From positions 301,650 through 365,649 of the forward strand of contig NZ_JNZO01000014.1 of the NCBI RefSeq assembly GCF_000717595.1: a DNA stretch of 64,000 nucleotides, read 5' to 3'. The notes beneath the pieces are model-generated. The model ran no database searches. It had not been told where the DNA came from and saw only the letters and a list, made by a program, of their open reading frames with translations. Positions 8,809 through 45,049 of this stretch are shown here, piece by piece. Position 1 is the stretch's first letter, and each line of letters begins with the position of its first letter. The DNA is from Streptomyces flavochromogenes. GTDB lineage: Bacteria > Actinomycetota > Actinomycetes > Streptomycetales > Streptomycetaceae. A program made the translations under genes and the position numbers.

Positions 8809-9009
8809 ATGATGCGTACCGCCACCAGCAGAGCCGCCCGAGGGATCGCGGCGGCGATGCTGACCGCGCTGGCGACGGCAGGGGCGTTCACCGCCGTCGC
8901 GGGAAGCGTCACTCCGGCGAGCGGTGACGCTGTCGCCGCGGCGGGCGACTGTCTCGACCCCCAGAACGTGTGCTGGGTCAACGGCTGGCAGGAGAAGCCC
9001 GGCACCTGA
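8809..9009 (+). CDS. Small exported peptide (66 aa), two cysteines
   Basis: Starts with tandem ATG codons after GGAGGGGAAGAACC. The N-terminus is a textbook Sec signal peptide: a positive stretch (RTATSRAAR), a hydrophobic Ala/Leu core and a likely AxA-type cleavage region around residues 30-45 (GDAVAAAG). The predicted mature part is about 20 residues, beginning near GDCLDPQNVCWVNGWQ, with two Cys that could form one disulfide. No family recognised. It sits just upstream of two HTH/TrmB-like regulators, a position that would suit a secreted signal, but that is inference. It lacks the Thr/Ser/Cys pattern of a lanthipeptide core. Confidence 0.6.
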   Translation: MMRTATSRAARGIAAAMLTALATAGAFTAVAGSVTPASGDAVAAAGDCLDPQNVCWVNGWQEKPGT

Positions 9010-9125
9010 TCCTGTGCGGCGAGCCCGCCACGGGGGGGTGGGTCAAGCGGTCCGGGCGCCGAGCACGGCGCGCGGCCCCACCGCCATTCCAGTACCTCGT
9101 CACCGACGACCGTGGAGCACCGCCG

Positions 9126-11315: not shown

Positions 11316-12101
11316 ATGCTTTTCCGACTGCTGGGGCCTGTGAGGATCGCGGGCGGTGCCGAGACGCAGTCGGCAGCCCGCCGCGCGCTGCTCACCGCGC
11401 TGCTCCTGCGCCGGGGACAGTTCGTCGGCATGGGCGAGCTGACCGAGCTGTTGTGGGACGACCCGCCGAGCTCGGCGGTGGCCAACATCAGGAGCCACCT
11501 CACCGGGCTCCGCCGCGGCCTGGACTCCGCGAAGCCGGGACTGAGCAAACGGCTGACCACCAGCCGCGGCGCGGAGACCGGATACGCCCTCAGCGTCGAC
11601 GCGGACGAACTCGATCTGTCCTGCTTCCTGAAGCTCGCCCGGCAGGGCAGGGAACTGCTCGCCGCGGGCGACCACCGGGCCGCGGTGGGCCACCTGGACG
11701 AGGCCCTCGCCCTCTGGCGCGGCCCGTTCGGCCAACGGCTCCCGGCCACCCGGTGGTTCCACGCGCACACCGTGGGCCTCAGCAACACTCGCTTCGAGGC
11801 CTGCCAGGACTTCTTCACCGCGTGCCTGCTGACGCATCGGACCGAGATGTTGTCGTACCGCATCGAGACCGTGCTGGCCGAGGCCCCCTACCGGCAGCGG
11901 CTGTGGCAGTTACTCGCCGCCACCTACTGCGCGCAGGGCGACGTGGCCGGCGCGCTGGGCGTGATCGAGCGATGTCGGACCGTCTTCGCCGACGAACTGG
12001 GCCTGGACGTCCCTCCCGGCGTCGAAGCCATCCGGGCCGCCGCGCTCACCTGGGACACGGAGCGGGCGCACCGTCTGGTGGCCGAGATGGCACGCCAGTG
12101 A
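11316..12101 (+). CDS. SARP-family transcriptional activator (BTAD)
   Basis: 261-aa Streptomyces antibiotic regulatory protein of the small AfsR/DnrI/RedD type. Residues 1-95 form an OmpR-like winged helix (MLFRLLGPVRIAGG, then RRALLTALLLRRGQFVGMGEL and ELLWDDPPSSA) and residues about 100-250 the bacterial transcriptional activation domain (LDEALALWRG, APYRQRLWQLLAATY, ERCRTVFADELGLDVPPG). No NB-ARC/ATPase extension. ATG preceded by GAGAGG. SARPs usually activate the adjacent secondary-metabolite cluster, so this is a good candidate activator of the lantibiotic genes beginning 0.6 kb away on the other strand. Confidence 0.88.
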   Translation: MLFRLLGPVRIAGGAETQSAARRALLTALLLRRGQFVGMGELTELLWDDPPSSAVANIRSHLTGLRRGLDSAKPGLSKRLTTSRGAETGYALSVDADELDLSCFLKLARQGRELLAAGDHRAAVGHLDEALALWRGPFGQRLPATRWFHAHTVGLSNTRFEACQDFFTACLLTHRTEMLSYRIETVLAEAPYRQRLWQLLAATYCAQGDVAGALGVIERCRTVFADELGLDVPPGVEAIRAAALTWDTERAHRLVAEMARQ

Positions 12102-12643
12102 CGGCGGGCACCCGGTCGGCCGGGGCTCGGGTCCGCCGGCGACTCCGGTCGCTCGCGGTGGGGGAACTGGTCAACGTCCCCTTGCAGACGGCCATCTGGT
12201 TCGGCGTGGTCGGCGTGCCGACGACGGCCGCCAACCTCCTCGGATTCGCACTGGTCGTGCTGCTCCTCCTGGAGGGCGCCGCGTACTGGACGGTCAAGCT
12301 CCGTGCCCTGTCCGCCGACACCGGCGCACCGCTGCCCGGAGCGGCCGTGTTCTCCGCCGCTCGGGTGGTCAACCTGGTGCTGCTCGGGCTCGGCGTGCCG
12401 CTCACCGTTCTCGCGGTGGTCGACGCCCCCGGGACCGGAAGCATCCCCGGCCTGCTCTTCACGCTCTTCGCCGTCACGGAGCACGTCAACTATTTCCACA
12501 CCCAGCTGATGTACGACACTCCCGAGGACCGGCGCAGCCGCCGCAGGAACGGGCGACGCCGGGCCCATCTGGCCCGTGACCTGGAGCGGGCTCGGAAGCT
12601 CGGGACCGGGCGGCCTCCCGCCGATGAGGTCGGTCGCTGCTGA
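12098..12643 (+). CDS. Small integral membrane protein, unknown function
   Basis: 181 aa. The GTG start overlaps the SARP stop by 4 bp (GTGA), so the two are translationally coupled. Four likely membrane segments: near residues 20-40 (LQTAIWFGVVGVPTTAAN), 43-62 (LGFALVVLLLLEGAAYW), 80-105 (VVNLVLLGLGVPLTVLAVV) and 115-135 (IPGLLFTLFAVTEHVNYF), followed by a basic C-terminal tail (DRRSRRRNGRRRAH). No family recognised. Coupling to the cluster-edge SARP hints at a role in signalling, export or self-protection, but nothing in the sequence proves it. Confidence 0.65.
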   Translation: MTAGTRSAGARVRRRLRSLAVGELVNVPLQTAIWFGVVGVPTTAANLLGFALVVLLLLEGAAYWTVKLRALSADTGAPLPGAAVFSAARVVNLVLLGLGVPLTVLAVVDAPGTGSIPGLLFTLFAVTEHVNYFHTQLMYDTPEDRRSRRRNGRRRAHLARDLERARKLGTGRPPADEVGRC

Positions 12644-12650
12644 CGTCCCG

Positions 12651-12685
12651 GGCCGCACCGTGACCGGCCCGGTCACGGTGCGGCC
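12651..12685. terminator. Bidirectional hairpin terminator
   Basis: Near-perfect inverted repeat: left arm 12651-12667 (GGCCGCACCGTGACCGG), one central base, right arm 12669-12685, a 17-bp stem. It sits between the convergent membrane-protein gene and the LLM oxidoreductase, overlaps the stop of the latter, and can terminate both strands. No U-tract, as usual for Streptomyces. Confidence 0.8.
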
Positions 12686-13629
12686 TTCAGGATCTCGAAG
12701 AGGTCGGACGCGGCGGCCCGTGGTCCGTGCACCGCGCCGACCCCGGTGACGTTGAGGACCACCTCGTCCACGCCGAGCGCCCGGTAGGCGTCCAGCCGCT
12801 GGTGGATCTCCTCGGCCGTCCCGTAGAGGAAGATCCCGTGGTCCACCAGGGCCCGGACGTCGTCGGGCCCGCCGTCACCGGTGACCCGGATCCCGGCCCG
12901 CCGCAGGACGGCCTGGTAGTGGGGGAACTGGATGTGCCCCCCGCATGTCGCCCGCAGCAGTTTCGCCATGTCCCGGTCGGGGCCGGCCAGTGCCACCGGA
13001 ACATAGGCGGTGACCTTGACCGGCTGCTCCGGACGCCGCTCCTTCGCGCTCCGCAGAGCCGGGATCAGGAACTCCTCGAGGTACGCGGCCGAGGCCATCC
13101 AGGTGATGGCCACATCGGCGAGTTCCCCCGCGAGTTCGGCCATCCGCTCCCGCAGGACGCCGAGGCCCAGCGACACCTCCGGTTTGTGGAACGGCATGAG
13201 CTGCGCCTTGGCGGAGAAGATCTCCCCCTCGCGGTCGCTGATCCCGCCGTCCAGCAGGTCCCGGACGATGGTGACGTACTCCCGGCAGGCGGTGAGCTGA
13301 CTGGGGTAGGGCCGGCCCATGGCGCAGGTCTGCGCGGCGAGGGAGCCCGGACCGTAGCCGGCCACCACCTCGTGCCCGGTGGCCAGCGCCGTGGACCGGG
13401 CCTCGATCGCCGCGTTGTACGGCGAGCGGTAGGGCATCAGCGACACCCCGAACCCGGCGGGCACCCTGATTCCGGAGCCGGCCAGCCAGCCCACGATCTG
13501 ATGGCTGTCCAGAACGAGACCCTGGCCCTGCCACAGCCGGGCCGCGCCACCCCATTTGACGAGATTGGCGAAGGGGATCACCTGCTCGGGGCGGGTGGCA
13601 TTGACGGGGAGGAGGATCGAGTGCCGCAT
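12673..13629 (-). CDS. LLM-class (F420-type) oxidoreductase; candidate LanJ-type Dha reductase
   Basis: 318-aa TIM-barrel protein of the luciferase-like monooxygenase family, whose actinobacterial members mostly use coenzyme F420. Seen: N-terminal barrel strand MRHSILLPVN, a family-typical segment VAGYGPGSLAAQTCAMGRP near 95-110, PEVSLGLGV near 165, and a C-terminal GTAEEIHQRLDAYRALGVDEVVLN. ATG 13629 was chosen because homology begins there. It is the last gene of the lantibiotic run, 46 bp after the LanM. F420H2-dependent reductases of this superfamily (LanJC, e.g. LxmJ of lexapeptide) turn dehydroalanine into D-Ala in lanthipeptides; that role fits here but is inferred from context. Confidence 0.82.
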   Translation of the reverse strand: MRHSILLPVNATRPEQVIPFANLVKWGGAARLWQGQGLVLDSHQIVGWLAGSGIRVPAGFGVSLMPYRSPYNAAIEARSTALATGHEVVAGYGPGSLAAQTCAMGRPYPSQLTACREYVTIVRDLLDGGISDREGEIFSAKAQLMPFHKPEVSLGLGVLRERMAELAGELADVAITWMASAAYLEEFLIPALRSAKERRPEQPVKVTAYVPVALAGPDRDMAKLLRATCGGHIQFPHYQAVLRRAGIRVTGDGGPDDVRALVDHGIFLYGTAEEIHQRLDAYRALGVDEVVLNVTGVGAVHGPRAAASDLFEILKAAP

Positions 13630-13675
13630 CCCGGCAGCCCTTTCGACGAGTGGTGGAGCGGATGACAGGGGGCGG

Positions 13676-16495
13676 TCAGCTCGGGGAAGGCGCGGACAGT
13701 TCCAGCGGGAGGCGCACACCGGCCGGGTCCGCGCCGCCGAGCAGGGCGCCGAGCATCAGGTCGGTGTCGCCCACGCCGGACCAGCCGAGCATGTAGCCGA
13801 TCAGTGAGGTCCGGCCGGCCGCGCCCGTGAAGTAGCCGTCCTCGCGGATCCGGCCGAGGACCTCGGTCTGATGGGCGGAGGCCCGCTCGAACAGGTCCGC
13901 GCGTCCCAGGGTGCGGCCCGCGCCGATCAGGCACTGGACGACGCCGCTGCTGCCGTGGCAGACGGAGAGGTCCACCGCGCGGCCGGGCGCCAGGGCGGTG
14001 GCCCGCCCGACCAGATCGGCCAGCCGGGACTCGGTCAGCCAGTCCTCCCGGCCCGCCGCTGCGAGGATCTCCGAGCCGGCCAGCAGGAGGCCGGCAGCGC
14101 CCTTGCACCAGCCGTGCTCCGCCGGGACGCCGTCCCGCTCCCATCGGCCGATCAGCCAGTCCGCCGCCTCCTTGGCGGTGCGCTCCAGACCCAGAACGGA
14201 TCCGGTCCGGGCGGCCGCCCAGCGCAGTCCCAGTTCCCCGTGGGCCAGGTCCGACCAGTGGGTGTCCCGCTCCCTGCCCAGGTGGGACAGGGTCAGGTCG
14301 GTGAGCCGCTCGACCGTCGTGGCGTCGGCGGGGAAGGAGGATCCGTCGCGGCGGAGACGGTCGAGCAGGACCATCAGCAGCCCGGCCGGGCCGTTGGAGA
14401 GGTCGGTCTCCAGCACGCCTTCCGCCGCACGGTCCTGGAGAGCCTGGAGCAGCCCGGCCAGCCGGGCGGACGCGGTCTCCGGGTCCTCGGGGCGGACCAG
14501 CAGCAGCGAGGCGGCCCCCGTGAACACCGACTCGGGGCGCTGCAGCAGCGCCTCGCCGTACTCGGCGAGCAGGGAGGTGAGCCCCCGGTCGGCACTGGCG
14601 GCGGGACCGGCCAGGCTCTCGTCACGGGCGGCGGCGCGGTTGAGGAAGGAGACCACGCCGGCCGAGTCGTGGAAGGAGACGAAGTTGCCCGGGGTGATGG
14701 TGGAGGCGTCGCGGTCCGGGCCGATGCCACCGACCCATCCGCACTCCTCCTGCCCGCCGGGAGCGGTGACCGGCACCCGCACCTCGGCGATCCGGCCGGC
14801 GATCGCCCGCCACCAGGCGCCGGGGCGGGCCCCGGCCAGCAGGTGCCCCCCGAAGACCCCGGAGGCCGAGAGCCCGCCGGGCGTGTCCTCGCCGCACAGC
14901 TCGCCGAAGCACTCCTCCAGCAGGAAGTGGTGGTAGGCGTCGGTGCGGGCCGCGTTGTGGGCGACGCCGCGCCGGGCGAAGTCCAGGGCGGTCGCCGAAT
15001 ACACCCCGGGTGTCGACCCGTCGACCGTGCCGAGCGCGTCGGAGTCGCCCCGGGTGACGAAGTACGGCACGTTGCCGCCGTGCAGCGAGGCGCGCTCCGC
15101 GTCCGCCGCGAAGCGCTCCGCCTCCGGGGACAGGTAGTCCTGGTGCATCTTCAGGAGTCCGAACAGCCGCTCGGCCTCCTCGGGGTCCACCAGGTACCTC
15201 GGGTGGGTGGAGGCGTCGATGAAGCGACCGTAGATCATGGTGGAGCGCAGCAGCAGCCGCACCGGCACCCCGGGGTGGGCCTCCAGGACGCGGGTGACGG
15301 CGCCGGCACGCAGGGCCGTCAGGGCCGCGCGGCAGCCGGCCAGGATGGCGTCGAACCACTCGGTGGCGATCAGGTGCGTCTCGCCCAGCCGGGGCACGTT
15401 GTCGCCCTGCCGGTAGTTGAAGGGCTCCCGTGACACCGCGATGGCGTCCGTTCCCGGGTCGCGGATCACGGCGCTGGTCATGGACGACGGCTGGTCGCCC
15501 GCCACCCCGACGCCCGCCATGATGAAGTCGACCGGCGAGGTCGGGTTCACCATCGGCACCAGCATCGTGGAGGCGACGGACAGCTTGGTGTGGTTCATCA
15601 GCGCGTCGGGGAGCGACTCGTCTCCCACCCCGGCGTCCGGCCGGAGCATGGTCTCGGTGTCGATGACGCACGGGTACTCGCCGCAGGCCAGCAGGTTCTC
15701 GTCGTGCAGGTCGGTGGCACCGATGGAGCCGAACAGCACCGCCAGCGCGCCGATCCGGTAGAAGTAGCGGCCGGGCTGGTCCGCCTCCTCCATGGGGGTC
15801 GGCACGGTGAACTCCTGCCAGCCGTGCGTGCCCACGGTGAGTGACCGGGGGACGCAGCGGGACAGCGGGTGCTCCAGGTGCGGGTCGACCGCCCGGTACA
15901 GGTCGCGGACGAAGTCGTCCGCGGTGAGCGGCCGCGGCTTGAACACCAGCCGGGTTCCGTTGGCCAGGTGCAGGATGTGGACCTGGCGGTTGTCGTTGTG
16001 CAGGTCGGAGCCGCTGGGCGAGATCGCGGACAGCAGGCGGCCTTCGTCGTCCGGCTCGCCGAGCAGTCCGGCCTCCGCAAGCAGCGGGCGGTCGTCGGCG
16101 AAGGCGGTGAGGAACTCACTGTAGGCGTCCAGGGAGTGCGACAGCATCGTGGCCAGCCGCCCCCGGAGCACCGGGTACTTCTCCAGCAGGGAGTCCGGGA
16201 AGCCGGGCTCCTCCAGACGGGCCGTGAAGCGGCGCAGAGCGGTGCCGGCCCCGGATTCCATCGGCAGGCCGAGGTGCTCCCGGAAGGTGTGGAACTCGCC
16301 GATGAGCATCCGGTAGGACTGGGTCTCCACCGTTTTCAGCATGGCCTCGTGGGCCTGGTCCAGCACGCTGTCGCGCCGGTCCGGGGCGGCAGCCCGCAGC
16401 AACGGCTCGCGCAGCTCCTGCTCCACCGCGGACCGGGGGACCACATGGGAGTAGAAGGGAAGGAAGGCCTCGATGGCCACCGTGCTCTCGCTCAT
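13676..16495 (-). CDS. lanM: Class II lanthipeptide synthetase LanM (beta unit)
   Basis: 939-aa bifunctional lanthipeptide synthetase. The N-terminal dehydratase/kinase-like domain phosphorylates and eliminates Ser/Thr of the precursor: RLVFKPRPL near residue 185, DLHDENLL near 263 and VIDTETML near 278 are its catalytic and nucleotide-binding signatures. The C-terminal LanC-like cyclase forms the thioether rings, with Zn ligands in WCKGAAG (about 794) and VCHGSSG (about 843). Length is normal for LanM. Its ATG overlaps the upstream transporter stop by 4 bp, so they are co-translated. Proximity suggests it modifies the beta peptide LanA2, but cross-use with LanA1 cannot be excluded. Confidence 0.95.
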   Translation of the reverse strand: MSESTVAIEAFLPFYSHVVPRSAVEQELREPLLRAAAPDRRDSVLDQAHEAMLKTVETQSYRMLIGEFHTFREHLGLPMESGAGTALRRFTARLEEPGFPDSLLEKYPVLRGRLATMLSHSLDAYSEFLTAFADDRPLLAEAGLLGEPDDEGRLLSAISPSGSDLHNDNRQVHILHLANGTRLVFKPRPLTADDFVRDLYRAVDPHLEHPLSRCVPRSLTVGTHGWQEFTVPTPMEEADQPGRYFYRIGALAVLFGSIGATDLHDENLLACGEYPCVIDTETMLRPDAGVGDESLPDALMNHTKLSVASTMLVPMVNPTSPVDFIMAGVGVAGDQPSSMTSAVIRDPGTDAIAVSREPFNYRQGDNVPRLGETHLIATEWFDAILAGCRAALTALRAGAVTRVLEAHPGVPVRLLLRSTMIYGRFIDASTHPRYLVDPEEAERLFGLLKMHQDYLSPEAERFAADAERASLHGGNVPYFVTRGDSDALGTVDGSTPGVYSATALDFARRGVAHNAARTDAYHHFLLEECFGELCGEDTPGGLSASGVFGGHLLAGARPGAWWRAIAGRIAEVRVPVTAPGGQEECGWVGGIGPDRDASTITPGNFVSFHDSAGVVSFLNRAAARDESLAGPAASADRGLTSLLAEYGEALLQRPESVFTGAASLLLVRPEDPETASARLAGLLQALQDRAAEGVLETDLSNGPAGLLMVLLDRLRRDGSSFPADATTVERLTDLTLSHLGRERDTHWSDLAHGELGLRWAAARTGSVLGLERTAKEAADWLIGRWERDGVPAEHGWCKGAAGLLLAGSEILAAAGREDWLTESRLADLVGRATALAPGRAVDLSVCHGSSGVVQCLIGAGRTLGRADLFERASAHQTEVLGRIREDGYFTGAAGRTSLIGYMLGWSGVGDTDLMLGALLGGADPAGVRLPLELSAPSPS

Positions 16496-18696
16496 GCCCC
16501 GGCACCTTCCACCAGCAGTTCGGCCGTCGGGCCGGCCCCATCGGCTGTCGCCGCGTACAGGTCCCGGTACACGCTGCCTCCGTCCATGAGTTCTGAATGT
16601 GTTCCTTGCTCGACGATCCGTCCCTGGTCGAACACGTAGATGAGGTCGGCGGTCTCGATCGTCGACAGTCGGTGCGCGATGACGATCTGGGTGGCGCCGA
16701 TTCCCTCGATCAGCCGGGTCACCCGGCGTTCGTTGACCGTGTCCAGGGAGGCGGTGGCCTCGTCCATGACGAGGATGGACGGCCGTTGCAGGAGGGTGCG
16801 CACGATCGCCAGCCGCTGCCGCTGCCCCCCGGAGAAGTTGGAGCCCATCTCGGCGACCAGGGTCTGCAGCCCCATCGGCAGGTCGTCGAGGAAGTCCAGG
16901 ATGCCGGCCTCGCGGCAGAACTCCCGGACGGTCTCCTCGGGGATGTCCTGGCCCAGGGTGAGGTTCTCCAGGATCGACCGGTTGTGCAGGTGGACCTCCT
17001 GCGGGATGTAGCCGATCACTCGGCGCAGGGAGTCCCGGTCGTACTCGGCGGCGTCCCGGTCGCCGAAACGGACCGAGCCGGAGGTGGGTTCGTGCAGGCC
17101 GCAGACGATCCGGGCCAGGGTGCTCTTGCCCGACCCGGAGGCGCCCACCAGGGCGACCCGGGCGCCGGCCGGGATGTTCATGGTGACGTCGCGGACGACC
17201 GCCTCGCTGTGCCGGGTGTAGCGGAAGGACACCTGGTCCAGTCGGACGGAAGCGGACGTCAGCTGCTTGCGCTCGCCGCCGGGGCCCTCGGGCTCGGTGC
17301 GGGTGATGTCGCTCAGGCGGGACATGTAGCGGCTGGTCTCGGTGAACTCCGCGTACGCCTGGAACACCGAGGTGGAGATGGCGAAGTAGGTGGCGGCGAC
17401 GGTCTGTACCGCGATCGCCCCGCCGATGCTGATGGTCCCCCGGCCGACGAAGTAGAGGCTGGCGAGCAGCAGGAGCAGCGGCCCGAACATCTGGACGGTG
17501 GCCGCCACACCGGTCACCTGGCCCTGCTGCAGCCGCATCCGCGCCTTCATCGCGTCGAGGGAGGCGGCGTAGGTTTCGCGCCAGGTGTCCAGGTACTGGT
17601 CGGCGTAGCCCCCCATCTTGATGGTCGGGATGGAGACGATGGCGTCCAGCTGCAGTGACTGGCTCCTGCCCAGGTGGGTGATCTCCATGTCGACCGCCTC
17701 CAGCACCCGCAGTCGGGTGGCGGCCAGATAGCCGGCGTTGGCCAGCACCAGGGCGAGCGCCATCAGCCCGAGCCGCCATTCCACGTACAGCAGGTAGCCG
17801 CTGACGCAGACCATGGTGCCGACGTCCAGCACGCCCTGGGCGACCCGGGAGGAGAGCATGTCGCGGACGGCGTTGACGCTGCCGAGCCGGAAGAGCAGCT
17901 CGCCGGGCTGACGGGTGGTGAAGAACCGGTACGGCAGCGACAGCAGCCGGGTGAAGGCGTGGTCCATCAGATGCCGCCCGAGCACCGACACCAGCGAGGA
18001 CAGCAGCAGGATCCTCAGAAGATGCAGCAGGTAGTAGCCGACGGCGGCGCCGGCCACCATGCCGATGACCCACAGATGGTCGCCGAGTTCCGTCCAGCCC
18101 GAGAACCGGTCCACGGACCATTCGGTGAGCAACGGGATCCCCAGCACCGCGGCGTAGGCGCCCATCGACAGCGCGCCGACACCGGCCATCCGGCGCCCCG
18201 CGCCGGCGGGCAGCAGGGGCATCGTCCGCCAGTCGGCGAAAGGCCGGCGACGCACCCGGCGGAACGCGGGCCCGGGCTCGGCGGTGAGGACCACGCCGCT
18301 GAAGTGCTGGGAGAGTTCGTCCGAGGTCATCCGGCGGCGCCCGACGGCCGGGTCCATGACGACGGCCTGTTCGCCGTCGAAGCTCTCCAGGACCACGAAG
18401 TGGTGGTCGTCCCAGAAGAGGATCACGGGCGCGTCGAACCGGGTGAGCGCGGCGACGCCCCGGGCGCTCAGCAGCCGGCTCCGCATGCCGCGGGACTCCA
18501 GGAACCGCGCGAGCTGCCGGGCGCTCAGGCCGTCCCGTCCCGCGTCCATGTCCTCGCGGACCTCTGAGAGGCCTTCGTCCCGCCCGTAGTAACGGAGCAG
18601 GGACACGCAGCAGCACAGACCGCACTCGGTCTGGGCGACCTGGGTGACGGCCGGCACGCGTCGCGCGGTCCGACGTGATTCCGGGCGAGCGCCCAT
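16492..18696 (-). CDS. lanT: C39-peptidase ABC transporter LanT (beta unit)
   Basis: 734-aa peptidase-containing ABC exporter. N-terminal C39 protease (about 1-145): catalytic Cys25 in QTECGLCC, His in DDHHFVVLE near 96, Asp in VVMDPAVGRR. Membrane domain about 165-440. Nucleotide-binding domain with Walker A GASGSGKST near 515, signature FSGGQRQR and Walker B ILVMDEATASLD. It should cut the leader after the Gly-Gly of LanA2 and export the mature peptide. ATG follows GGAGG at about 10 nt. Located 193 bp after lanA2 and overlapping lanM. It is a clear paralogue of the second LanT at 21003-23141. Confidence 0.95.
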   Translation of the reverse strand: MGARPESRRTARRVPAVTQVAQTECGLCCCVSLLRYYGRDEGLSEVREDMDAGRDGLSARQLARFLESRGMRSRLLSARGVAALTRFDAPVILFWDDHHFVVLESFDGEQAVVMDPAVGRRRMTSDELSQHFSGVVLTAEPGPAFRRVRRRPFADWRTMPLLPAGAGRRMAGVGALSMGAYAAVLGIPLLTEWSVDRFSGWTELGDHLWVIGMVAGAAVGYYLLHLLRILLLSSLVSVLGRHLMDHAFTRLLSLPYRFFTTRQPGELLFRLGSVNAVRDMLSSRVAQGVLDVGTMVCVSGYLLYVEWRLGLMALALVLANAGYLAATRLRVLEAVDMEITHLGRSQSLQLDAIVSIPTIKMGGYADQYLDTWRETYAASLDAMKARMRLQQGQVTGVAATVQMFGPLLLLLASLYFVGRGTISIGGAIAVQTVAATYFAISTSVFQAYAEFTETSRYMSRLSDITRTEPEGPGGERKQLTSASVRLDQVSFRYTRHSEAVVRDVTMNIPAGARVALVGASGSGKSTLARIVCGLHEPTSGSVRFGDRDAAEYDRDSLRRVIGYIPQEVHLHNRSILENLTLGQDIPEETVREFCREAGILDFLDDLPMGLQTLVAEMGSNFSGGQRQRLAIVRTLLQRPSILVMDEATASLDTVNERRVTRLIEGIGATQIVIAHRLSTIETADLIYVFDQGRIVEQGTHSELMDGGSVYRDLYAATADGAGPTAELLVEGAGA

Positions 18697-18889
18697 GGCT
18701 ACCGCACCTCCGGGTTGTGGGACGTCGGGCAGGGAGAGGGGCTTGCGTTGACGGGGCGTCGGACGGGGCGGGAGACCGGGAAGCCCGGCGCGGGCGTCGG
18801 ACCTCGGTCCGGCCCACCCCACCCCGTCCGTCGTGACCGGCGCGGCGGTCCGGTTCAGCGGGCCGCGCGTATCAGAGCCGTCAAGGGCT

Positions 18890-19063
18890 TCAGCACTGGC
18901 TGGTGCACTTGGTGGTCGGGCAGGCGGAGGCGGACACCAGGGTCGCCACGGCGGTGACGATGGCGCAGCTCCAGGTGGTACCGCCGTACACGTCCGCCTC
19001 GCCCATCTCGACGAGCTCGAACTCGTCGTAGCCGCCGAGGACGTCGGCCTGCATCTTCTCCAT
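18890..19063 (-). CDS. lanA2: Class II lantibiotic precursor, beta peptide (57 aa)
   Basis: 57-aa precursor. The 28-residue acidic leader (MEKMQADVLGGYDEF, then ELVEMGEADVYGG) ends in a canonical double-Gly cleavage site. The 29-residue core begins TTWSCAIV and ends CPTTKCTSQC, with four Cys and ten Ser/Thr available for dehydration and ring formation. The ending is, from memory, identical to haloduracin beta (CPTTKCTSQC) and close to lichenicidin beta, and the opening TTW-x-CA is shared too: the pore-forming partner of a two-component lantibiotic. Ser at core positions 16 and 18 would give Dha and possibly D-Ala. Start chosen by AAGGAG 7 nt upstream; longer in-frame starts lack similarity. 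A second GG (residues 10-11) is unlikely to be the cut site. Confidence 0.95.
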   Translation of the reverse strand: MEKMQADVLGGYDEFELVEMGEADVYGGTTWSCAIVTAVATLVSASACPTTKCTSQC

Positions 19064-19234
19064 GGTCTTCTCCTTCTCGTTTTTCTCCCGATACGCGCCC
19101 GGAAATCGTCCGGCGAAATACAGAACGCGTATCCTCCGCCTTCGGAGGACGACTCCCAGTCTGTCCGCATCCCATTCGTCGAACGCATAGACCTGACGCC
19201 CTCGTACGCACACGCTGAAATGCACCGTGAAATT
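19064..19234 (-). promoter_or_regulatory. Promoter and leader region of lanA2
   Basis: 170 bp between the terminator hairpin and lanA2, distinctly richer in A/T than its neighbours. It carries the strong lanA2 Shine-Dalgarno AAGGAG, and presumably a separate promoter, since the upstream transcript should end at the hairpin. No confident -35/-10 assignment. Confidence 0.5.
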
Positions 19235-19270
19235 CGACGGGCCCCCACACATTCGTGTGGGGGCCCGTCG
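19235..19270. terminator. Strong hairpin terminator between alpha and beta units
   Basis: Perfect 16-bp inverted repeat: left arm CGACGGGCCCCCACAC (19235-19250), loop ATTC, right arm 19255-19270. It lies 25 bp past the stop of the ABC permease in the direction of transcription, so the alpha-unit transcript should end here and the beta unit should have its own promoter. Confidence 0.88.
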
Positions 19271-19295
19271 ACGCGATGTGAGGTGCGGAGAGCCC

Positions 19296-20033
19296 TCAGA
19301 CGTCCCGCCGCACCGTCATCCAGTGTCCGAGTGCCACCGACCCCACCGTCCACGCGGCGAGCACGCCCAGCCCGGACCACGCTCCGAGCACCTCGTCGGC
19401 GCCCGGGCCGCGCAGCACCGTCCCCCCCGCCACATCCGGCAGGAACCGGGCCACCTCCCCGACCCCCGGTATGTTGCTCAGGATCGTGGAGACCATGAAG
19501 AACAGCGGAAGCAGAACGGACAGCGCCGCCGCGCCCGACCGCAGCAGCGTCGCCACTCCCATGGAGAACGCCACCAGCAGCGCCGTGTAGAGCACCGCCC
19601 CCGCCACATGCCCCGCCGTGGCGAGTCCCGTCGACACCCGGTGCTCCCCGATACCGCTCTGCACGATCAGGAAGGCCGGCACCACCCCCACCACCGCCAG
19701 CCCTCCGCTGACCAGGCTGACCAGACCCACCTTGGCGTAGTAGAACCGGACCCGGTCGGGGACCGCCAGCAGACTGCTCCTGATCGACCCCGACGCGTAC
19801 TCGCCCGTCACCGCGAGAATCCCCATGATCACCAGAACGATCATCCCGAGCGGTACGACCGAGAGGCCGAGCCCGACCGGGTCGAACCCCGGCGCCGTCA
19901 GCTGCCTTTCGCCGGGAACCGTCCCGTAGACGAAGGCAAGTCCGATCATCAGGACGAGATAGACCGCCTGGGACCATTTCGGAGACCGCAGCGTCGTCAA
20001 TTTGACCCATTCCGCGGCCACGGCGTGCTTCAT
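19296..20033 (-). CDS. ABC transporter permease, LanE/G-type immunity
   Basis: 245-aa ABC-2-type permease with about six membrane helices (VYLVLMIGLAFVYGTV; VVPLGMIVLVIMGILAVTG; the ending AAWTVGSVALGHWM). The central TGEYASGSIRSSLLAVPDR is the conserved cytoplasmic segment of the ABC-2 permeases found next to lantibiotic clusters. Its ATG shares one base with the ATPase stop (TGATG), so the two are coupled. With that ATPase it would form a LanFE-like exporter expelling the lantibiotic from the producer membrane. Only one permease gene is present, so it may work as a homodimer. It could be an unrelated exporter, but the position within the cluster favours immunity. Confidence 0.82.
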   Translation of the reverse strand: MKHAVAAEWVKLTTLRSPKWSQAVYLVLMIGLAFVYGTVPGERQLTAPGFDPVGLGLSVVPLGMIVLVIMGILAVTGEYASGSIRSSLLAVPDRVRFYYAKVGLVSLVSGGLAVVGVVPAFLIVQSGIGEHRVSTGLATAGHVAGAVLYTALLVAFSMGVATLLRSGAAALSVLLPLFFMVSTILSNIPGVGEVARFLPDVAGGTVLRGPGADEVLGAWSGLGVLAAWTVGSVALGHWMTVRRDV

Positions 20034-20947
20034 CAGAACCCTCCCGTCGAAGCCCGGTATTCGGCGTATTCCTGGGTCAGTTTCATAAACGCCTCCTCCA
20101 GGGAACCCGAAGAAGCGGTCAGCTCGAAGACGGCGATGTTCTCCGCGCTCGCGACAAGCCCGACCTTCTCCACGGACACCCCGCTCACCGCCAGCGTCGC
20201 GTCGTCCTCCCGCACGCAATCGATGCCCTGCTCCCGCAGTGCCCGCCGCATCCCCTCCGGATCGGACACCCGGGCCACCACGGTCCTGTCCGCGTGCGCG
20301 GCGACGAACGCGTCCACGGGTGTGTCCGCGAGCAGCCGGCCCCGGGCGACGACCACCAGATGGTCGGCGGTCACCGCCATCTCGTTCATCAGGTGGGAGG
20401 AGACCAGCACCGTCCGCCCCTCCGCGGCCAGCCCCCGCATCAGCTCCCGGATCCACCGCACACCCTCGGGGTCGAGCCCGTTGACCGGCTCGTCGAACAG
20501 CAGCACCTCGGGGTCGCCGAGCAACGCCGCCGCGACGCCGAGCCGCTGCCCCATGCCGAGGGAGAATCCGCGCACCCTCTGCCGGGCCACCGCAAGCAGG
20601 CCGACCCGGTCCAGGACCTCCTCGGCCCGGGTGGCGGGCAGGCCGTGGGAGGCGGCCAGCACCCTCAGGTGGTCCCTGGCACTGCGGCCCGGGTGCACGG
20701 TCCTGGTGTCGAGCAGCGCTCCCACCCGGGTCAGCGGGCGCGTCAGGCTCCGGTAGGGGACGCCGAACACGGTGGCCCGGCCCGCGGTGGGCTCGTCCAG
20801 GCCGAGAATCATGCGCAGGGTGGTGGACTTGCCGGCGCCGTTGGGGCCGAGGAATCCGGTGACCTTCCCCGGGGTCACGGAGAACGACAGACCGTCGACG
20901 GCGACCTTCGCGCCGTACCGTTTGGTGAGGTTCTCGACCTCGATCAT
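20033..20947 (-). CDS. ABC transporter ATP-binding protein, LanF-type immunity
   Basis: 304-aa ATPase. Walker A GPNGAGKST near residue 38, signature FSLGMGQRLGVAAALL near 130, Walker B EVLLFDEPVNGLDPEG near 150, H-loop VLVSSHLMNEM near 190, then a roughly 90-residue C-terminal extension as in BcrA/LanF-like drug-resistance ATPases. ATG 20947 is favoured over the preceding GTG (20950) because GAGAGG lies 7 nt ahead. It starts 55 bp after the alpha-unit LanT and is coupled to the permease. Predicted role: powering self-protection against the two-component lantibiotic. Confidence 0.87.
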   Translation of the reverse strand: MIEVENLTKRYGAKVAVDGLSFSVTPGKVTGFLGPNGAGKSTTLRMILGLDEPTAGRATVFGVPYRSLTRPLTRVGALLDTRTVHPGRSARDHLRVLAASHGLPATRAEEVLDRVGLLAVARQRVRGFSLGMGQRLGVAAALLGDPEVLLFDEPVNGLDPEGVRWIRELMRGLAAEGRTVLVSSHLMNEMAVTADHLVVVARGRLLADTPVDAFVAAHADRTVVARVSDPEGMRRALREQGIDCVREDDATLAVSGVSVEKVGLVASAENIAVFELTASSGSLEEAFMKLTQEYAEYRASTGGF

Positions 20948-21002
20948 CACAGCACCTCTCGTCCATGGACGGTCATGACCGGACGGCCATGCCCACCGGC
21001 CC

Positions 21003-23141
21003 TCATACGGCTCCCGCCACCGGCTCCGCGTACAGCCCCGCGTACACGCCGCCCAGGGTCAGCAACTCCTCGTGCGTCCCTCGCTCCACGATCCGGCCGC
21101 GGTCCAGGACGTGGATCAGGTCCGCGTCCTGGATCGTCGCCAGCCGGTGCGCGATGACGATCTGCGTGGCACCGGTCTCCGCGATGATCCGGGAGACCCG
21201 CCGCTCGTTGGCGGTGTCCAGGGAGGCGGTCGCCTCGTCCAGGACGATGACCCGCGGCCGCTGCAGCAGTGTCCGCACGATGGCCAGCCGCTGCCGCTGC
21301 CCGCCGGAGAAGTTCGAGCCCATCTCGGACACCAGGGTCCGCAGCCCCATCGGCAGCTCCTCGACGAAGTCGAGGATCCCCACGGCCGCGCAGTACTCCC
21401 TGACCGTGGCCTCGTCGATGTCCTGGCCCAGGGTCAGGTTCTCGAGGATGGTCCGGTTGTGCAGGTGCACCTCCTGCGGGACGTACCCGATCTGCCCGCG
21501 CAGGAAGTCGGTCCGGTAGGCGCTCATGGGGCGGCCGCAGAACTCCACCGCCCCTCCGGTCGGCTGGTGGAGCCCGCAGACGACGCGCCCGACGGTGGAC
21601 TTGCCCGAACCCGACGCGCCGACGAACGCCACCTTCGCGCCGGCCGGGATCTCCAGCGACACGCCCTCCAGCACCGGTCTGCTGTGCCGGGTGTAGCGGA
21701 ACGACACCTCCCTCAGCCGTATCGAGGTGTCGGGGAGTTCCGTGAGGGACCCGCCCTCCGGCTCGCTCTCGTGCTCCGTGATGTCGCTCAGCCGGCTCAC
21801 GTAGCGGGAGGTCTCGGTGATCTCCGTCAGCATCTGGAAGACGGACGTGCTCAGGGCGAAGAAGGTGCCCGCCACGGCCTGCACCGCGATGGCCGAGCCG
21901 ATGGTCACCGTCCCCCGCGACACGAAGTGCAGGCCGGCCAGCAGCAGGGCCAGCGGGCCGAACATCTGCGTGGTGGCGGCGATTCCGGAGATCCAGCCCT
22001 GCTGGATCCGCATCCGGGTGCGCATCGCATCCAGCGAGGCGCTGTAGGTCGCCTCCCATTCGTCGGCGAACCGGCCGGCGTAGCCGCCCATCTTGATGGT
22101 GGGGACGGACACGATGGCATCGAGCTGCGTGGACTGGGAACGGGAGAGCAGCGCGAGCTCGGTGTCCGTCACCTCTTTCACCCGGTGCCGGCTCAGCCAC
22201 AGGAAGCCGCCGTTCAGCAGGAACAGCGCGAGCGCCAGCAGGCCGATGCGCCACTCGGTGACGAACAGGTAGACGCCGATGCAGGCAAGGGTCCCCACGT
22301 CCAGGACGCCCTGGGCGATCCGGGAGGAGAGCAGGTCCCGGACGCTGTTGACGGTGTTCAGGCGGAACAGCAGCTCGCCGGGCTGCCGGGTGGCGAAGAA
22401 CTTGAAGGGCAGGGAGAGCAGTCTCCTGAAGACATGGCTCATCAGGTGATGGCCCGTCACGGCGATCAGGCCGGCCAGCGCGGCGGTGCGCAGCATCCAC
22501 AGCAGCAGGTAGCCGATCGCGGCGGCCGCCACCGCCCCCGCGATCAGCCCCGTCTGGGACAGGTCACTCCAGGCGTCGTCCCGGTCGACGGCCCATTTGG
22601 TCAGCGCCGGTATGCCCAGCACCGCCGCGTAGGAGCCCAGCGACAGCAGGGCGACCAGCGCGATCCGGCGCCCTGCCCGGGCCGGGACCAGCGGCAGCGA
22701 CCTCCAGTGCCGGAAGGCGGGGAGGGACTGCCGGGTGAAGTCCGGGCCGGGGGAGGCCGCGATCACCACCTGGGAGAAGCCGGCCTCCAGCTCCTCGCGG
22801 GTGAGGCGCTTGCGGCCCACGGCCGGGTCCATCACCCAGGCCGTCGTGCCGTCGAAGCGCTCCAGGACCAGGAAGTGGTAGTCCTCCCAGAAGAGGATCA
22901 CCGGCTCGGTGAAACCCCGCAGGGCCTCCACGCTCCGGGCCCGGAACGCCTTGACCTCCATGCCCCTCGATCGCAGGAACTCCGCGAGCTGCTTGGCGCC
23001 GAGACCGTCCCGGCCGGCTTCGAGGTCCTCCCGCACGGTCCGGAAGTCCTCGGTGCGCCCGTGATACTCCATCACCGCGACGCAGCAGCAGAGCCCGCAC
23101 TCCGTCTGGGTGACCTGGGTGACGGAGGGAACCCGGCCCAT
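21003..23141 (-). CDS. lanT: C39-peptidase ABC transporter LanT (alpha unit)
   Basis: 712-aa peptidase-containing ABC exporter. C39 protease at the N-terminus with Cys15 in QTECGLCC, His in EDYHFLVLE and Asp in VMDPAVGRK; membrane domain about 155-430; NBD with Walker A GASGSGKST near 505, signature FSGGQRQR and Walker B VIVLDEATASLD. Much of the chain matches the beta-unit LanT word for word (RQPGELLFRL, VPQEVHLHNR, ENLTLGQDI), marking a duplication. The ATG shares one base with the lanM stop (TGATG). Expected to process and export LanA1 at its Gly-Ala site. Having a second dedicated LanT is unusual. Confidence 0.95.
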   Translation of the reverse strand: MGRVPSVTQVTQTECGLCCCVAVMEYHGRTEDFRTVREDLEAGRDGLGAKQLAEFLRSRGMEVKAFRARSVEALRGFTEPVILFWEDYHFLVLERFDGTTAWVMDPAVGRKRLTREELEAGFSQVVIAASPGPDFTRQSLPAFRHWRSLPLVPARAGRRIALVALLSLGSYAAVLGIPALTKWAVDRDDAWSDLSQTGLIAGAVAAAAIGYLLLWMLRTAALAGLIAVTGHHLMSHVFRRLLSLPFKFFATRQPGELLFRLNTVNSVRDLLSSRIAQGVLDVGTLACIGVYLFVTEWRIGLLALALFLLNGGFLWLSRHRVKEVTDTELALLSRSQSTQLDAIVSVPTIKMGGYAGRFADEWEATYSASLDAMRTRMRIQQGWISGIAATTQMFGPLALLLAGLHFVSRGTVTIGSAIAVQAVAGTFFALSTSVFQMLTEITETSRYVSRLSDITEHESEPEGGSLTELPDTSIRLREVSFRYTRHSRPVLEGVSLEIPAGAKVAFVGASGSGKSTVGRVVCGLHQPTGGAVEFCGRPMSAYRTDFLRGQIGYVPQEVHLHNRTILENLTLGQDIDEATVREYCAAVGILDFVEELPMGLRTLVSEMGSNFSGGQRQRLAIVRTLLQRPRVIVLDEATASLDTANERRVSRIIAETGATQIVIAHRLATIQDADLIHVLDRGRIVERGTHEELLTLGGVYAGLYAEPVAGAV

Positions 23142-26077
23142 CAGAGGGCTCCGTGCCAGATCGGCGACACCCGGGGGCGCGCGTCGTCGAGGCGGCCGAG
23201 CAGGTGCAGCAGCACGCCCGAGGAGCCCACCATGGCGCTGTCGGTGTGCGCGTAGCGGGAGCCTGTGTCGGCGAGTTTCTCCGCGACCACGTCGGGACCC
23301 AGCCTGCGCGCCTCGACGGCGGCGGCCCGCTCCAGCAGCTCCTGGTCGTCGCCGGCGATCCGGCGGACCACGTCGATGTTTCCGAGGTCGCCGTGGCACC
23401 AGGTGAGGTTGCGTCCGAAGCCCTGCCGGAAGGTGTTGTCGAGAGCCCCCTCCAGGCGCTCGGCGGCCCGTTCGTCCGCTGTCCGGGCGGTCACGGCGGA
23501 CAGTGCCATGGCGATGCCGGCGGCGCCGTGGCACCAGCCGGTCGAGAACCGGCCCGGGAAGGCGGAGTTGGTGGACCAGTTCCGCTCCTGCGGCACGTGG
23601 AAGAACTCCAGGCGGTCCATCAGGACGCCGATGGCGGCGTCGACGCCTCCGGTGTGGCCGGGCAGCGTGGCGAGGGCGTGCAGGACGCCCGCGACGCCGT
23701 GCGCGAAGCCCGACTGCTCCCACCAGGAGCCCGACGGCTCCTCCACATGGCGCAGCAGCCGGCCGGTGAGCCCGTCGAGGGCCTTGAGGCTGTGGTCGCC
23801 GCCGATCGAGGCGATCATCGTGGCGATCCCGGAGATCCCGGAGATCACCTCCGGGGTGTTCTCGGGGCCGAGCTGTTCCACGACCAGCGGCACGGCGTCC
23901 TGTGCCGCCTTGACCCAGCCCGGCTCCCGCAGGATTCGCCCGGCCTCGCACAGGGCGAACAGCAGGCCGGTGGTACCGGTGTAGGCGCCGGCGCCGCTCT
24001 GCCGGATGCTGCGCAGCTCGTAGACGCCGTCGGTGAGGATGCCGGCGCTGCGCTCGAAGACCTGGCGTGCCACCCGCTCGTAGCGTTCGTCTCCGAAGTG
24101 GGCCGCGGCCGCGGCAAGGGCCAGCGCGGGGCCGGTGCGTCCGGTGTACAGGTCGTACCCCAGCACGCCGGAGGGCCAGGGCCGGGCGGCCTGCGCGGAG
24201 GCGAGCGGGCCGATCCAGGTGGCGGGAAGATGACCGTACTGGTCGGGGAGGCTGCCTGCGGTCAGGGCGTCGGCCAGCGACCGGGCGAGCCGCTCCAGGC
24301 CGGTGCGCTCCCCGGTGGCGGCTCGGCCGTTCCAGGCGGCCCCGCCGGAGAGGTGGTTGTCGGGGAAGCGGGAGCAGAAGGCCGAGTGGAGCAGCCGTAG
24401 CTGCCGCCTCACCGCCTGCTCGTCGAGCGCCCCGGCCTTGGCGAGCGCCCGGGAGAGCGGGGTGCGCTCGAGCCGGACCCCGGTGTCCTCGCCGTCGCAG
24501 TCGTGGACGGTGGTGCCGGTGGCGGGCACGGTGAAGTAGGGGACGTCGCGTTCGGCCATCTGCCGCAGCTCCGAGCCGACCAGCCTGCGGTCGGAGAACC
24601 GGGAGGGGATGGCGATCCTGTGGAGCAGGGCCTGGGCGAGCGCCGGGTCGGCCATCGCGGCGGCGGAGGCTGCCATCCGCAGGATCTGTGCGTACTGCGA
24701 CGTCGGGTTGTGGATGTAGCGCAGGCGCATGGCCGGGGCGAGCCGCTCCAGCAGGGTGGTCCACCAGGAGGGCCGGCGCATCACCGCCTCGCAGACCTGC
24801 CGGAACCCGTCGGCCATCTGTCCGGCGAGCCCGTGGATCTCCTGTTCGGTGCTCTCCCGGACCACGGTGGAGCGCTGCCCGGACGGGCGCGCCTGGAGGT
24901 GTACCCGGATCCGGTCGGTGAAGGGGTGCTCGAAGACCATGGTCTTGAAGGGGGAGACGCCCTGGTTGTCGCCGCCGAGGAATCCGAGGTCGACGTAGCC
25001 GGAGTCCTCGCTCTTGCCGGCCAGGACCAACGGGAGGATCCCGATGCCGTAGACGCTGCGGCCGATCTCGTCGTACGCGTTGCCCTCGGCCTCCGGGGTG
25101 GGGCCGGTGTGCACCCGGGAGGGGTGCAGCAGCGTCTCGAGATCGATGGCCACCGGGCCCAGGCGGGTGGGCAGGATGTTCTCGAAGTGCATGTCGCGCG
25201 CGTCCAGCAGGTAGAACACGGCGGCCAGTTGTCCGCAGGCCCGCATGAACGGGACGCTGAATCCGCCGATGTCCTCCTGTTCGACGTACTCGACGTACCC
25301 GTACCCGTCGCGCACCAGGGTGCGGGCGGCCGGCAGTGCGCAGTCGGCCTCCGCGTTGACGCGCTCGACGACCGTCTCGAAGGCCGCCTCGCAGGAGACG
25401 TCCCGCGGCTTGTAGACCAGGCGGGCCCCGGAGGCGAACGTCAGGATGCTCACCGCCCTGCCATGGGCGTGCGCGTCGCCGTCGGCCCCGCCGATGGACA
25501 GCAGCGGGTCGCCGGGGGCGATGCCGGAGAACCGGAAGACCTCGTCCCGGTCGGCGTGGAGGCGCCGGACCAGTTCGCGCGCGGCCTCGCGGGTGTTGCG
25601 CACCAGATGGCCGGCCGCGGAGCGGAGCACCGGGAACGGTTCCAGGGCGTCGCTCCACGCCCGGGTGACGAAGTCCTGGTAGCGCTCATGCGGGGTCGCT
25701 CCCCGCAGCAGCCCGTCGGTGGAGGCCTTGTTGACCGCGGCGACCAGGGTGCGGGTCGCCACGTCGCGGAGCCGGGCCTCGGCCCGGCCGAGTACCTGGA
25801 GCGCGAAGGCGTCCAGGTCGGCGACGGCCTCCGTGAGGTCCTCGGGGAGGAGCCTGCCGGCCGCCGGCAGCGCCAGGCGTCGGATCACGCGCTGGAACGG
25901 ATACTCCTCCGGCTCCTGCGACCAGGCGAGCGCGGCCGGCGAGGGGGCCTCTGGAGCGACGTCGGACAGCGCCGAGAGCTTGACGTGGACGGCGGGCGCG
26001 AAAACGCCGAGGGGCTCGATGGTTTCGCGGATTTCGACGCTGTCGAGTTCTGGGTAGAGATTCGCGGGCGAGATCAA
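23141..26077 (-). CDS. lanM: Class II lanthipeptide synthetase LanM (alpha unit)
   Basis: 978-aa LanM. Dehydratase domain with HADRDEVFRF near 190, RLVYKPRDV near 220, DMHFENILPT near 294 and VAIDLETLLHPS near 308; C-terminal LanC-like cyclase with Zn motifs GWCHGAAG near 847 and TWCHGDLG near 893. It installs dehydro residues and (methyl)lanthionine rings, presumably in LanA1, 100 bp upstream. It starts with TTG at 26077 (GGGAG 8 nt ahead); no better ATG/GTG exists nearby. It is only distantly similar to the other LanM of the cluster, so the two halves did not arise by simple recent duplication of everything. Confidence 0.95.
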   Translation of the reverse strand: MISPANLYPELDSVEIRETIEPLGVFAPAVHVKLSALSDVAPEAPSPAALAWSQEPEEYPFQRVIRRLALPAAGRLLPEDLTEAVADLDAFALQVLGRAEARLRDVATRTLVAAVNKASTDGLLRGATPHERYQDFVTRAWSDALEPFPVLRSAAGHLVRNTREAARELVRRLHADRDEVFRFSGIAPGDPLLSIGGADGDAHAHGRAVSILTFASGARLVYKPRDVSCEAAFETVVERVNAEADCALPAARTLVRDGYGYVEYVEQEDIGGFSVPFMRACGQLAAVFYLLDARDMHFENILPTRLGPVAIDLETLLHPSRVHTGPTPEAEGNAYDEIGRSVYGIGILPLVLAGKSEDSGYVDLGFLGGDNQGVSPFKTMVFEHPFTDRIRVHLQARPSGQRSTVVRESTEQEIHGLAGQMADGFRQVCEAVMRRPSWWTTLLERLAPAMRLRYIHNPTSQYAQILRMAASAAAMADPALAQALLHRIAIPSRFSDRRLVGSELRQMAERDVPYFTVPATGTTVHDCDGEDTGVRLERTPLSRALAKAGALDEQAVRRQLRLLHSAFCSRFPDNHLSGGAAWNGRAATGERTGLERLARSLADALTAGSLPDQYGHLPATWIGPLASAQAARPWPSGVLGYDLYTGRTGPALALAAAAAHFGDERYERVARQVFERSAGILTDGVYELRSIRQSGAGAYTGTTGLLFALCEAGRILREPGWVKAAQDAVPLVVEQLGPENTPEVISGISGIATMIASIGGDHSLKALDGLTGRLLRHVEEPSGSWWEQSGFAHGVAGVLHALATLPGHTGGVDAAIGVLMDRLEFFHVPQERNWSTNSAFPGRFSTGWCHGAAGIAMALSAVTARTADERAAERLEGALDNTFRQGFGRNLTWCHGDLGNIDVVRRIAGDDQELLERAAAVEARRLGPDVVAEKLADTGSRYAHTDSAMVGSSGVLLHLLGRLDDARPRVSPIWHGAL

Positions 26078-26121
26078 TGCTCCGGCTCCCTGCGCGGAAG
26101 ATGATAGATTTCCACGTTGCG

Positions 26122-26158
26122 CCGGGGGCGGGGAGCATGAGCCGCTCCCCGCCCCCGG
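26122..26158. terminator. Attenuating hairpin between lanA1 and lanM
   Basis: 15-bp perfect stem: CCGGGGGCGGGGAGC (26122-26136), 7-nt loop, complementary arm 26144-26158. It sits 21 bp after the lanA1 stop and 44 bp before the lanM start. Such partial terminators are common after lanA genes and keep the precursor transcript in excess over the enzymes while allowing read-through. Confidence 0.85.
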
Positions 26159-26179
26159 TCCGTGCCAAGCCCTTGGGGC

Positions 26180-26350
26180 TCAGTTGCAGTTGGGCTGGCA
26201 CTCCTTGGTCAGCGTGCACCAGCCGCCCTGGTTGCCGAGGAAGTCGGAAAGCGAGAACGTGTTGGTCGAGCACGCGCCGTAGGCGACGCCGTCGAAGTCC
26301 TGCTCCGCGATCTCCTCGATGAGCGAGATGTCACCGTCGTAGTTGTTCAT
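26180..26350 (-). CDS. lanA1: Class II lantibiotic precursor, alpha peptide (56 aa)
   Basis: 56-aa ORF below common length cut-offs. The 26-residue acidic leader (MNNYDGDISLIEEIAEQDF, then DGVAYGA) ends in Gly-Ala like the lacticin 3147 A1 leader. The 30-residue core begins CSTNTFSLSDFLGN and ends WCTLTKECQPNCN, with four Cys. CTLTxEC is the mersacidin-type lipid II-binding ring motif. From memory about 21 of 30 core residues equal lacticin 3147 A1, including CSTNTFSLSD and Ser7, which is D-Ala there. This makes it the lipid II-binding partner of LanA2. The Shine-Dalgarno is weak (GGAT); a 14-bp palindrome overlaps the start codon. First gene of the minus-strand cluster. Confidence 0.95.
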   Translation of the reverse strand: MNNYDGDISLIEEIAEQDFDGVAYGACSTNTFSLSDFLGNQGGWCTLTKECQPNCN

Positions 26351-26362
26351 GTGAATTCACAT
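26349..26362. promoter_or_regulatory. 14-bp perfect palindrome at the lanA1 start
   Basis: ATGTGAATTCACAT reads identically on both strands and abuts the lanA1 initiation codon. It could be an operator or an mRNA hairpin covering the ribosome site. No function can be assigned from sequence alone. Confidence 0.5.
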
Positions 26363-27977: not shown

Positions 27978-28033
27978 ACCGCTCCTGGGCGTCCGGTCCG
28001 TACGCGCTCGGTCTGCGGGCCGCATGTTCCACG

Positions 28034-43833: not shown

Positions 43834-43846
43834 GATCCGTGATTCC

Positions 43847-45004: not shown

Positions 45005-45049
45005 TCCGGGATGTCTCCTCACGACCGACGGCGCGATTACCTTTCTCCC

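Follow-up and report, generated by a model that had tools for sequence, protein, structure and literature searches.

Analysis of a 64,000-nucleotide stretch of Streptomyces flavochromogenes DNA (hereafter the window) revealed a two-component class II lantibiotic cluster whose organization is best explained, as a whole, by two complete clusters of the same family that were set side by side with complementary gene loss, leaving a birimositide-type product encoded in two lines of genes. We put the probability of this explanation at roughly 80%. Judged from its sequence, the window adds another member to the birimositide kind, a product type that is already known; the merged two-line architecture is the noteworthy part. 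The literature searched on two-LanT precedents yielded no description of this merged gene order, which does not prove its absence.

All genes named in the original prediction were found on the minus strand between 12673 and 26350 (Table 1), with third-position GC of 0.89-0.97, in the transcription order alpha, LanM1, LanT1, ABC ATPase, ABC permease, beta, LanT2, LanM2 and luciferase-like oxidoreductase. The families of the precursors, LanM and LanT uphold the assignment as an actinomycete cluster for a two-component class II lantibiotic. Both LanM proteins contain DUF4135 and LANC_like domains (Pfam), i.e., a dehydratase and a LanC-like part, and score 483 (LanM1) and 322 bits (LanM2) against a TIGR03897 cut-off of 304; LanM1 resembles the LicM2 structure 6st5, and cyclase motifs are present in LanM1 and LanM2 alike. 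Peptidase_C39, ABC membrane and ABC ATPase domains (Pfam) are present in LanT1 and in LanT2, each of which retains the peptidase Q-x-x-C-G motif and Walker A, a combination seen in 35 of 41 LanT rows. The top NCBIfam model for the ABC ATPase is a lantibiotic protection ATPase, with a score below that model's cut-off. A start of the oxidoreductase at 13629 appears more likely than one at 13719, because in our judgement the longer reading frame would overlap LanM2. A profile search of genome contigs, run with an alpha alignment of 32 rows, retrieved 31 loci; as seven of these share its gene content and order, the cluster is more than a chance assembly. The window's order (alpha-M1-T1-ABC followed by beta-T2-M2-LanJC) is designated type A; its eight members are the window and loci L001-L007.

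Table 1. Features of the cluster and its surroundings (window positions). L010, L045 and L052 are compact relatives described in the text; paired numbers are tree support.
Feature	Position	Strand	Evidence and remarks
Alpha precursor	26180..26350	-	56 aa; PF14867 and NF000539 over cut-off; conserved across 31 loci
Hairpin between alpha and LanM1	26122..26158		15-16 pairs in window; kept in 8/8 type-A members
LanM1, presumed alpha synthetase	23141..26077	-	TTG start; TIGR03897 over cut-off; cyclase motifs
LanT1, alpha-half C39 peptidase/ABC exporter	21003..23141	-	Pfam; Q-x-x-C-G and Walker A; tree with L045/L052
ABC ATPase, presumed immunity	20033..20950	-	Pfam ABC_tran
ABC permease, presumed immunity	19296..20033	-	weak ABC2_membrane_2 match below cut-off; adjoins ATPase; tree with L052
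Joint hairpin between permease and beta	19234..19271		17 pairs; kept in 8/8 type-A members
Beta precursor	18890..19063	-	57 aa; NF038161 LchA2/BrtA2 over cut-off
LanT2, beta-half C39 peptidase/ABC exporter	16492..18696	-	Pfam; motifs; tree with L010, 93/94
LanM2, presumed beta synthetase	13676..16495	-	TIGR03897 over cut-off; LicM2-like; tree with L010, 98/98
LanJC-like luciferase-family oxidoreductase, presumed Dha reductase	12673..13629	-	PF00296 over cut-off
Small hydrophobic protein	12131..12643	+	start uncertain; 85-92% identical in type-A relatives; no Pfam family
SARP-type activator	11316..12101	+	BTAD and Trans_reg_C exceed their cut-offs
Putative regulator, LuxR-like by eye only	9969..10955	-	82-96% identical in relatives; no Pfam family
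Related putative regulator	8970..9923	+	about 41% identical to relatives of the 9969..10955 regulator; no Pfam family

Both precursors are already named by NCBI's own models. The alpha peptide matches PF14867 (Lantibiotic alpha; E 4e-10) and NF000539 (plantaricin C family; 52.2 bits, cut-off 29), and the beta peptide matches NF038161 (LchA2/BrtA2; 71.8 bits, cut-off 26). The alpha leader ends in VAYGA and precedes a predicted core of 30 residues of the lacticin 3147 A1 type; the beta leader ends in DVYGG and precedes a predicted core of 29 residues. Leaders ending in GA and GG, together with C39 exporters, place the system in the double-glycine-type class II group, and one cluster contains both an alpha and a beta precursor of recognized type, as in two-component lantibiotics. 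Compared with lacticin 3147 A1, 21 of 30 positions of the alpha core are alike, and the beta core has the TTW start and CPTTKCTSQC end of haloduracin beta. Pairing of such an alpha with such a beta is customary in this actinobacterial family. Only one alpha match was found in the whole genome of the window.

Birimositide, of S. rimosus subsp. rimosus WC3908, has a lacticin-3147-like alpha, a family II 19 beta and a luciferase-like enzyme for which Walker et al. 2020 proposed the name LanJC (PMC7268733). Its alpha resembles that of lacticin 3147, D-Ala position included; its reported masses fit the conversion of a single Ser to D-Ala in each peptide, and the two peptides were reported to act in synergy (PMC7268733). 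The window has a similar lacticin-type alpha, an LchA2/BrtA2-family beta, a luciferase-like LanJC and a Streptomyces host; this likeness is one of description. For birimositide beta, 6 dehydrations were reported (PMC7268733); the beta core of the window contains 11 Ser/Thr. The BrtA2 in the family name presumably refers to birimositide. An S. rimosus locus was absent among the 31 loci from the alpha profile search. Birimositide thus removes the claim of a new alpha/beta pairing, which is further rejected by the adjacency of both precursor types in 18 of 31 loci, and supersedes roseocin as the actinomycete precedent (PMC7268733). What is hybrid is not the peptide pair but the gene cluster, the halves of which come from two sub-lineages of the family according to the trees described below.

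Roseocin (Streptomyces roseosporus) is, like the window, an actinomycete two-peptide lantibiotic, but the available part of its description gives a single LanM acting on both precursors, which themselves fall into other families (PMC10027976). With two LanM in the window and precursors of the NF000539 and NF038161 families, we rejected roseocin as the closest relative. Lacticin 3147 and haloduracin have Firmicutes hosts, in contrast to the window. The reductase of lacticin 3147 is of the unrelated class LanJA (PMC7268733, PMC11519912). Two-LanM clusters were already listed in Streptomyces in a 2014 mining paper, including that of S. viridochromogenes DSM 40736, in which a single LanT separates the two LanM (PMC3951391). 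Romsacin likewise has a two-peptide cluster with two LanM and an LchA2/BrtA2-family beta, but one LanTP between the LanM genes (PMC10715183). The two-peptide, two-LanM cluster of paralichenicidin (Bacillus paralicheniformis MDJK30) was annotated with LanT1, LanT2 and LanT3, the part of the report available not stating a C39 peptidase in the extra LanT, and a Streptococcus pneumoniae cluster with two putative LanT is mentioned as well (PMC6458615). Because that report annotates several LanT, the presence of two LanT is not in itself presented here as new (PMC6458615). The B. paralicheniformis locus in our own set (L030) had one LanT match.

Type-A order occurred in seven of the 31 loci (L001-L007), with LanM1 84-97% and LanT1 92-98% identical to the window and LanJC adjoining LanM2 in all seven. 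Type-A members include S. wedmorensis NRRL 3426, S. griseoluteus NRRL ISP-5360 and S. exfoliatus NRRL B-2924. Another 18 loci (actinobacterial L008-L021 and L024-L027) were compact, with alpha next to beta and just one LanT in the DNA examined, and the remaining six (L022, L023 and L028-L031) were more distant. Loci L001-L008 are the same as the longer L038-L045, so that L045 is L008. The beta peptide was detected in 5 of 199 Streptomyces-group genomes, the window's own among them.

Three compact clusters bear on the origin of type A. Those of Streptomyces sp. NRRL F-5630 (L045/L008) and of Streptomyces sp. NBC_01431 (L052; 737-kb linear plasmid, NZ_CP109497.1 348864-359879) have the order alpha-beta-M1-T-M2-JC-ATP-perm with one LanT, and that of Streptomyces regalis NRRL 3151 (L010) has alpha-beta-M1-T-M2-JC, with one LanT in the DNA examined. 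L052 is close to the window in alpha (85% identical), LanT1 (80%), ATPase (67%), LanM1 (65%) and permease (63%), but not in LanM2 (48%) or LanJC (51%), and has one LanT. Conversely, the S. regalis cluster, although compact and with one LanT, is close in LanJC (72%), LanT2 (71%), beta (63-65%) and LanM2 (58-59%), whereas its LanM1 is only 50% identical. The L045/L052 order minus beta-M2-JC, plus the L010 order minus alpha-M1, gives the window's order exactly.

Several other arrangements were observed among the loci. In L023 (Paenibacillus faecalis), a LanM-LanT-LanM-LanT-like order spans 13362-20131; both LanT-like matches are weak (30% and 24%), and the end of the locus truncates the second. 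The LanT frame continues to 1677 aa in L026 (from 13695) and 1671 aa in L027 (from 13641), which suggests a LanT-LanM fusion like that described for S. bingchenggensis (PMC3951391). L012, L014 and L015 have a tandem pair of beta precursors beside one alpha at about 10200-10550.

Gene-by-gene trees, unrooted and rebuilt after addition of the plasmid-borne L052, separated the two halves. Type-A LanM1 and LanT1 each grouped with L045 and L052 (both 100/100) and the permease with L052 (100/99). LanJC and LanM2 grouped with L010 (100/100 and 98/98), as did, less firmly, LanT2 (93/94). In AU tests, whose groups were chosen with the trees already known, placement of LanM1 with L010 (p 1e-80) and of LanJC with L045 and L052 (p 6e-5) was rejected; placement of LanM2 with L052 alone was rejected (p 2e-8), and with L045 and L052 together it was not (p 0.11). 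The ATPase tree gave no resolved placement. No ABC pair was found in the S. regalis DNA examined, and the ABC trees, having no S. regalis row, cannot test that donor. The donor lineages are sampled by two clusters (L045/L052) and by one (L010). The six distant loci were included in the first LanT tree and omitted from the later LanT trees and from those of LanM1 and LanM2; the LanJC trees cover loci with LanJC, and the ATPase trees omit hits of 45% identity or less, minus-strand hits in non-type-A loci, and L019, L026 and L027. When the gaps were searched for remnants of genes since lost, tblastn gave weak matches only (best E 0.004), and we took these as chance.

The merger would have proceeded by an L052/L045-like cluster keeping alpha-LanM1-LanT1-ABC and an S. 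regalis-like cluster keeping beta-LanT2-LanM2-LanJC, with the outcome of two lines, each having one LanM and one LanT and probably forming its own transcription unit. Internal duplication, by which one compact cluster doubled its LanT and was rearranged so that LanT1 and LanT2 are in-cluster paralogues, would be a single and simpler event, and the two genes are 72% alike in DNA over about 2.1 kb. It also drew on the LanT tree without L052, in which LanT2 had a different, weak placement and the two LanT groups came together with L045 inside (73/71). However, a single clade of LanT1 and LanT2 was rejected both before (p 6e-6) and after (p 1e-14) L052 was added, which disfavors duplication within the cluster, and in the trees the remaining genes of either half go with the LanT of that half; we consider this account highly improbable. 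The reverse history, in which the two-line order is ancestral and compact clusters arose by loss of one LanT, profits from the fact that unrooted trees alone do not prove direction. Nevertheless, type-A LanM2 and LanJC are nested within compact-cluster diversity beside S. regalis, with LanM1 and LanT1 falling with L045/L052, and several parallel losses would have had to converge on the same compact order, making an ancestral type A improbable.

A more specific version of the merger, in which complementary loss joined two whole birimositide-type clusters, either peptide of the synergistic pair is served by a synthetase, a leader-cutting exporter and a promoter of its own, the LanTs are specialized for one leader each, and the cassette then spread among Streptomyces, is offered tentatively, at somewhat less than even odds. 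Another reading, also somewhat less likely than not, takes the two lines as a historical accident without specialization, one LanT serving both peptides and its counterpart being redundant: in the DNA examined, compact relatives carry a single LanT for their two precursors, and both leaders have a double-glycine-type end. Against redundancy, both LanT are full length in all eight type-A members, each in its own half, and both are under purifying selection, with dN/dS against three type-A relatives of 0.12-0.17 for LanT1 and 0.20-0.31 for LanT2 (0.10-0.34 for the remaining cluster enzymes and transporters). Such conservation and selection show maintenance of both genes, not their specificity.

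Separate transcription of the two lines would fit the positions of two hairpins. That between permease and beta, at the joint of the halves, covaries among type-A members, 3 of 12 compared pairs being altered on both sides, and is likely a terminator. That between alpha and LanM1 had no covariation (13 compared pairs invariant in the eight members) and is likely a partial terminator. In the four compact clusters that were folded (L009, L010, L011 and L045), a hairpin likewise stands between beta and LanM1. A scan of 18600-26800, ill-suited to high-GC Streptomyces, found no sigma-70 promoters and one terminator-like site, not above shuffles.

The oxidoreductase is LanJC-like by PF00296 and its position next to LanM2; the NCBIfam models and the solved structures nearest to it are those of F420-dependent enzymes, all below curated cut-offs. 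LanJC and an alpha FSLS/FSFS motif were both present in 22 of 26 actinobacterial loci and both missing in the other four, which represent few lineages (three in one clade, L025-L027) and were searched within the DNA examined; this tally omits the window and L052, both of which have LanJC and FSLS. The Ser position of alpha that yields D-Ala is presumably that of lacticin 3147. In L024 (S. viridochromogenes DSM 40736), a second, diverged LanJC-like gene lies upstream of alpha (8643-9584, minus strand) and groups with that of L045.

The original prediction named the cluster correctly but omitted regulators, and leftward the conserved unit reaches about 8.6 kb. Similarity of the DNA to that of type-A relatives ended at 8608-8658 in all six loci extended leftward (all but L006) and at 26700-26737 on the right in five of seven; L002 and L006 are collinear with the window to about 36.2 kb, and L003 retains a PucR gene fragment. 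The common cassette, about 8.6-26.7 kb, includes the SARP, two related putative regulators and the small hydrophobic protein. A SARP 58-66% identical also occurs near several compact clusters. Because flanks change and a compact relative resides on a plasmid, lateral movement of the cassette is suggested. Flanking PucR and SpoIIE-type proteins were found in 72 and 106 of 199 genomes (strict cut-offs), and through flanking proteins no pre-insertion site was established among these genomes. Adjoining alpha, outside the cassette, a PucR-type regulator (26760-27980, minus strand) is intact in two of the seven type-A loci (L002 and L006).

Elsewhere in the window, a type III polyketide synthase, an ICMT-type methyltransferase and a FAD-dependent oxidoreductase in a row (42290-45022, minus strand) form a probable second small biosynthetic cluster. 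A 1438-aa protein with an AftD-type arabinofuranosyltransferase domain is encoded at 31776-36092 (plus strand); the only tRNA that ARAGORN called in the window, tRNA-Gly (35980-36071, minus strand), lies inside the end of this gene, on the opposite strand, and is possibly a false call. The same contig of this genome encodes, outside the window, a third LanM-type dehydratase domain (G000:C14, 155290-156414).

In relatives that have been characterized, lipid II is bound by alpha, which beta then joins in forming pores, according to the portions of the reports available (PMC7268733, PMC10027976, PMC10715183). Given such pores in relatives, antibacterial activity against Gram-positive bacteria is the most likely role. 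LanM1 would dehydrate and cyclize alpha, and LanM2 would do likewise for beta. LanJC would convert dehydroalanine from alpha Ser7, and possibly from one beta residue, to D-Ala; C39 LanT would cut each leader after GA or GG and export the core. The mature alpha would then have a computed monoisotopic mass of 3143.31 (seven dehydrations plus 2 H), and for beta masses were computed for 6-11 dehydrations, with or without 2 H. Outside the cell, alpha may bind lipid II and recruit beta into pores in Gram-positive competitors, with the ABC pair shielding the producer.

The family extends well past the single characterized birimositide. Type-A clusters provide a natural setting in which to ask whether two-peptide lantibiotics are built of interchangeable alpha and beta lines, and whether a LanT faced with two double-glycine-type leaders can be specific for one of them; the compact relatives L045, L052 and L010 are ready controls for swapping halves. 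The SARP regulator of the cassette might serve to wake a silent cluster. If the more specific version of the merger is true, it would be a natural case of a two-peptide antibiotic assembled from two lineages in mix-and-match fashion.
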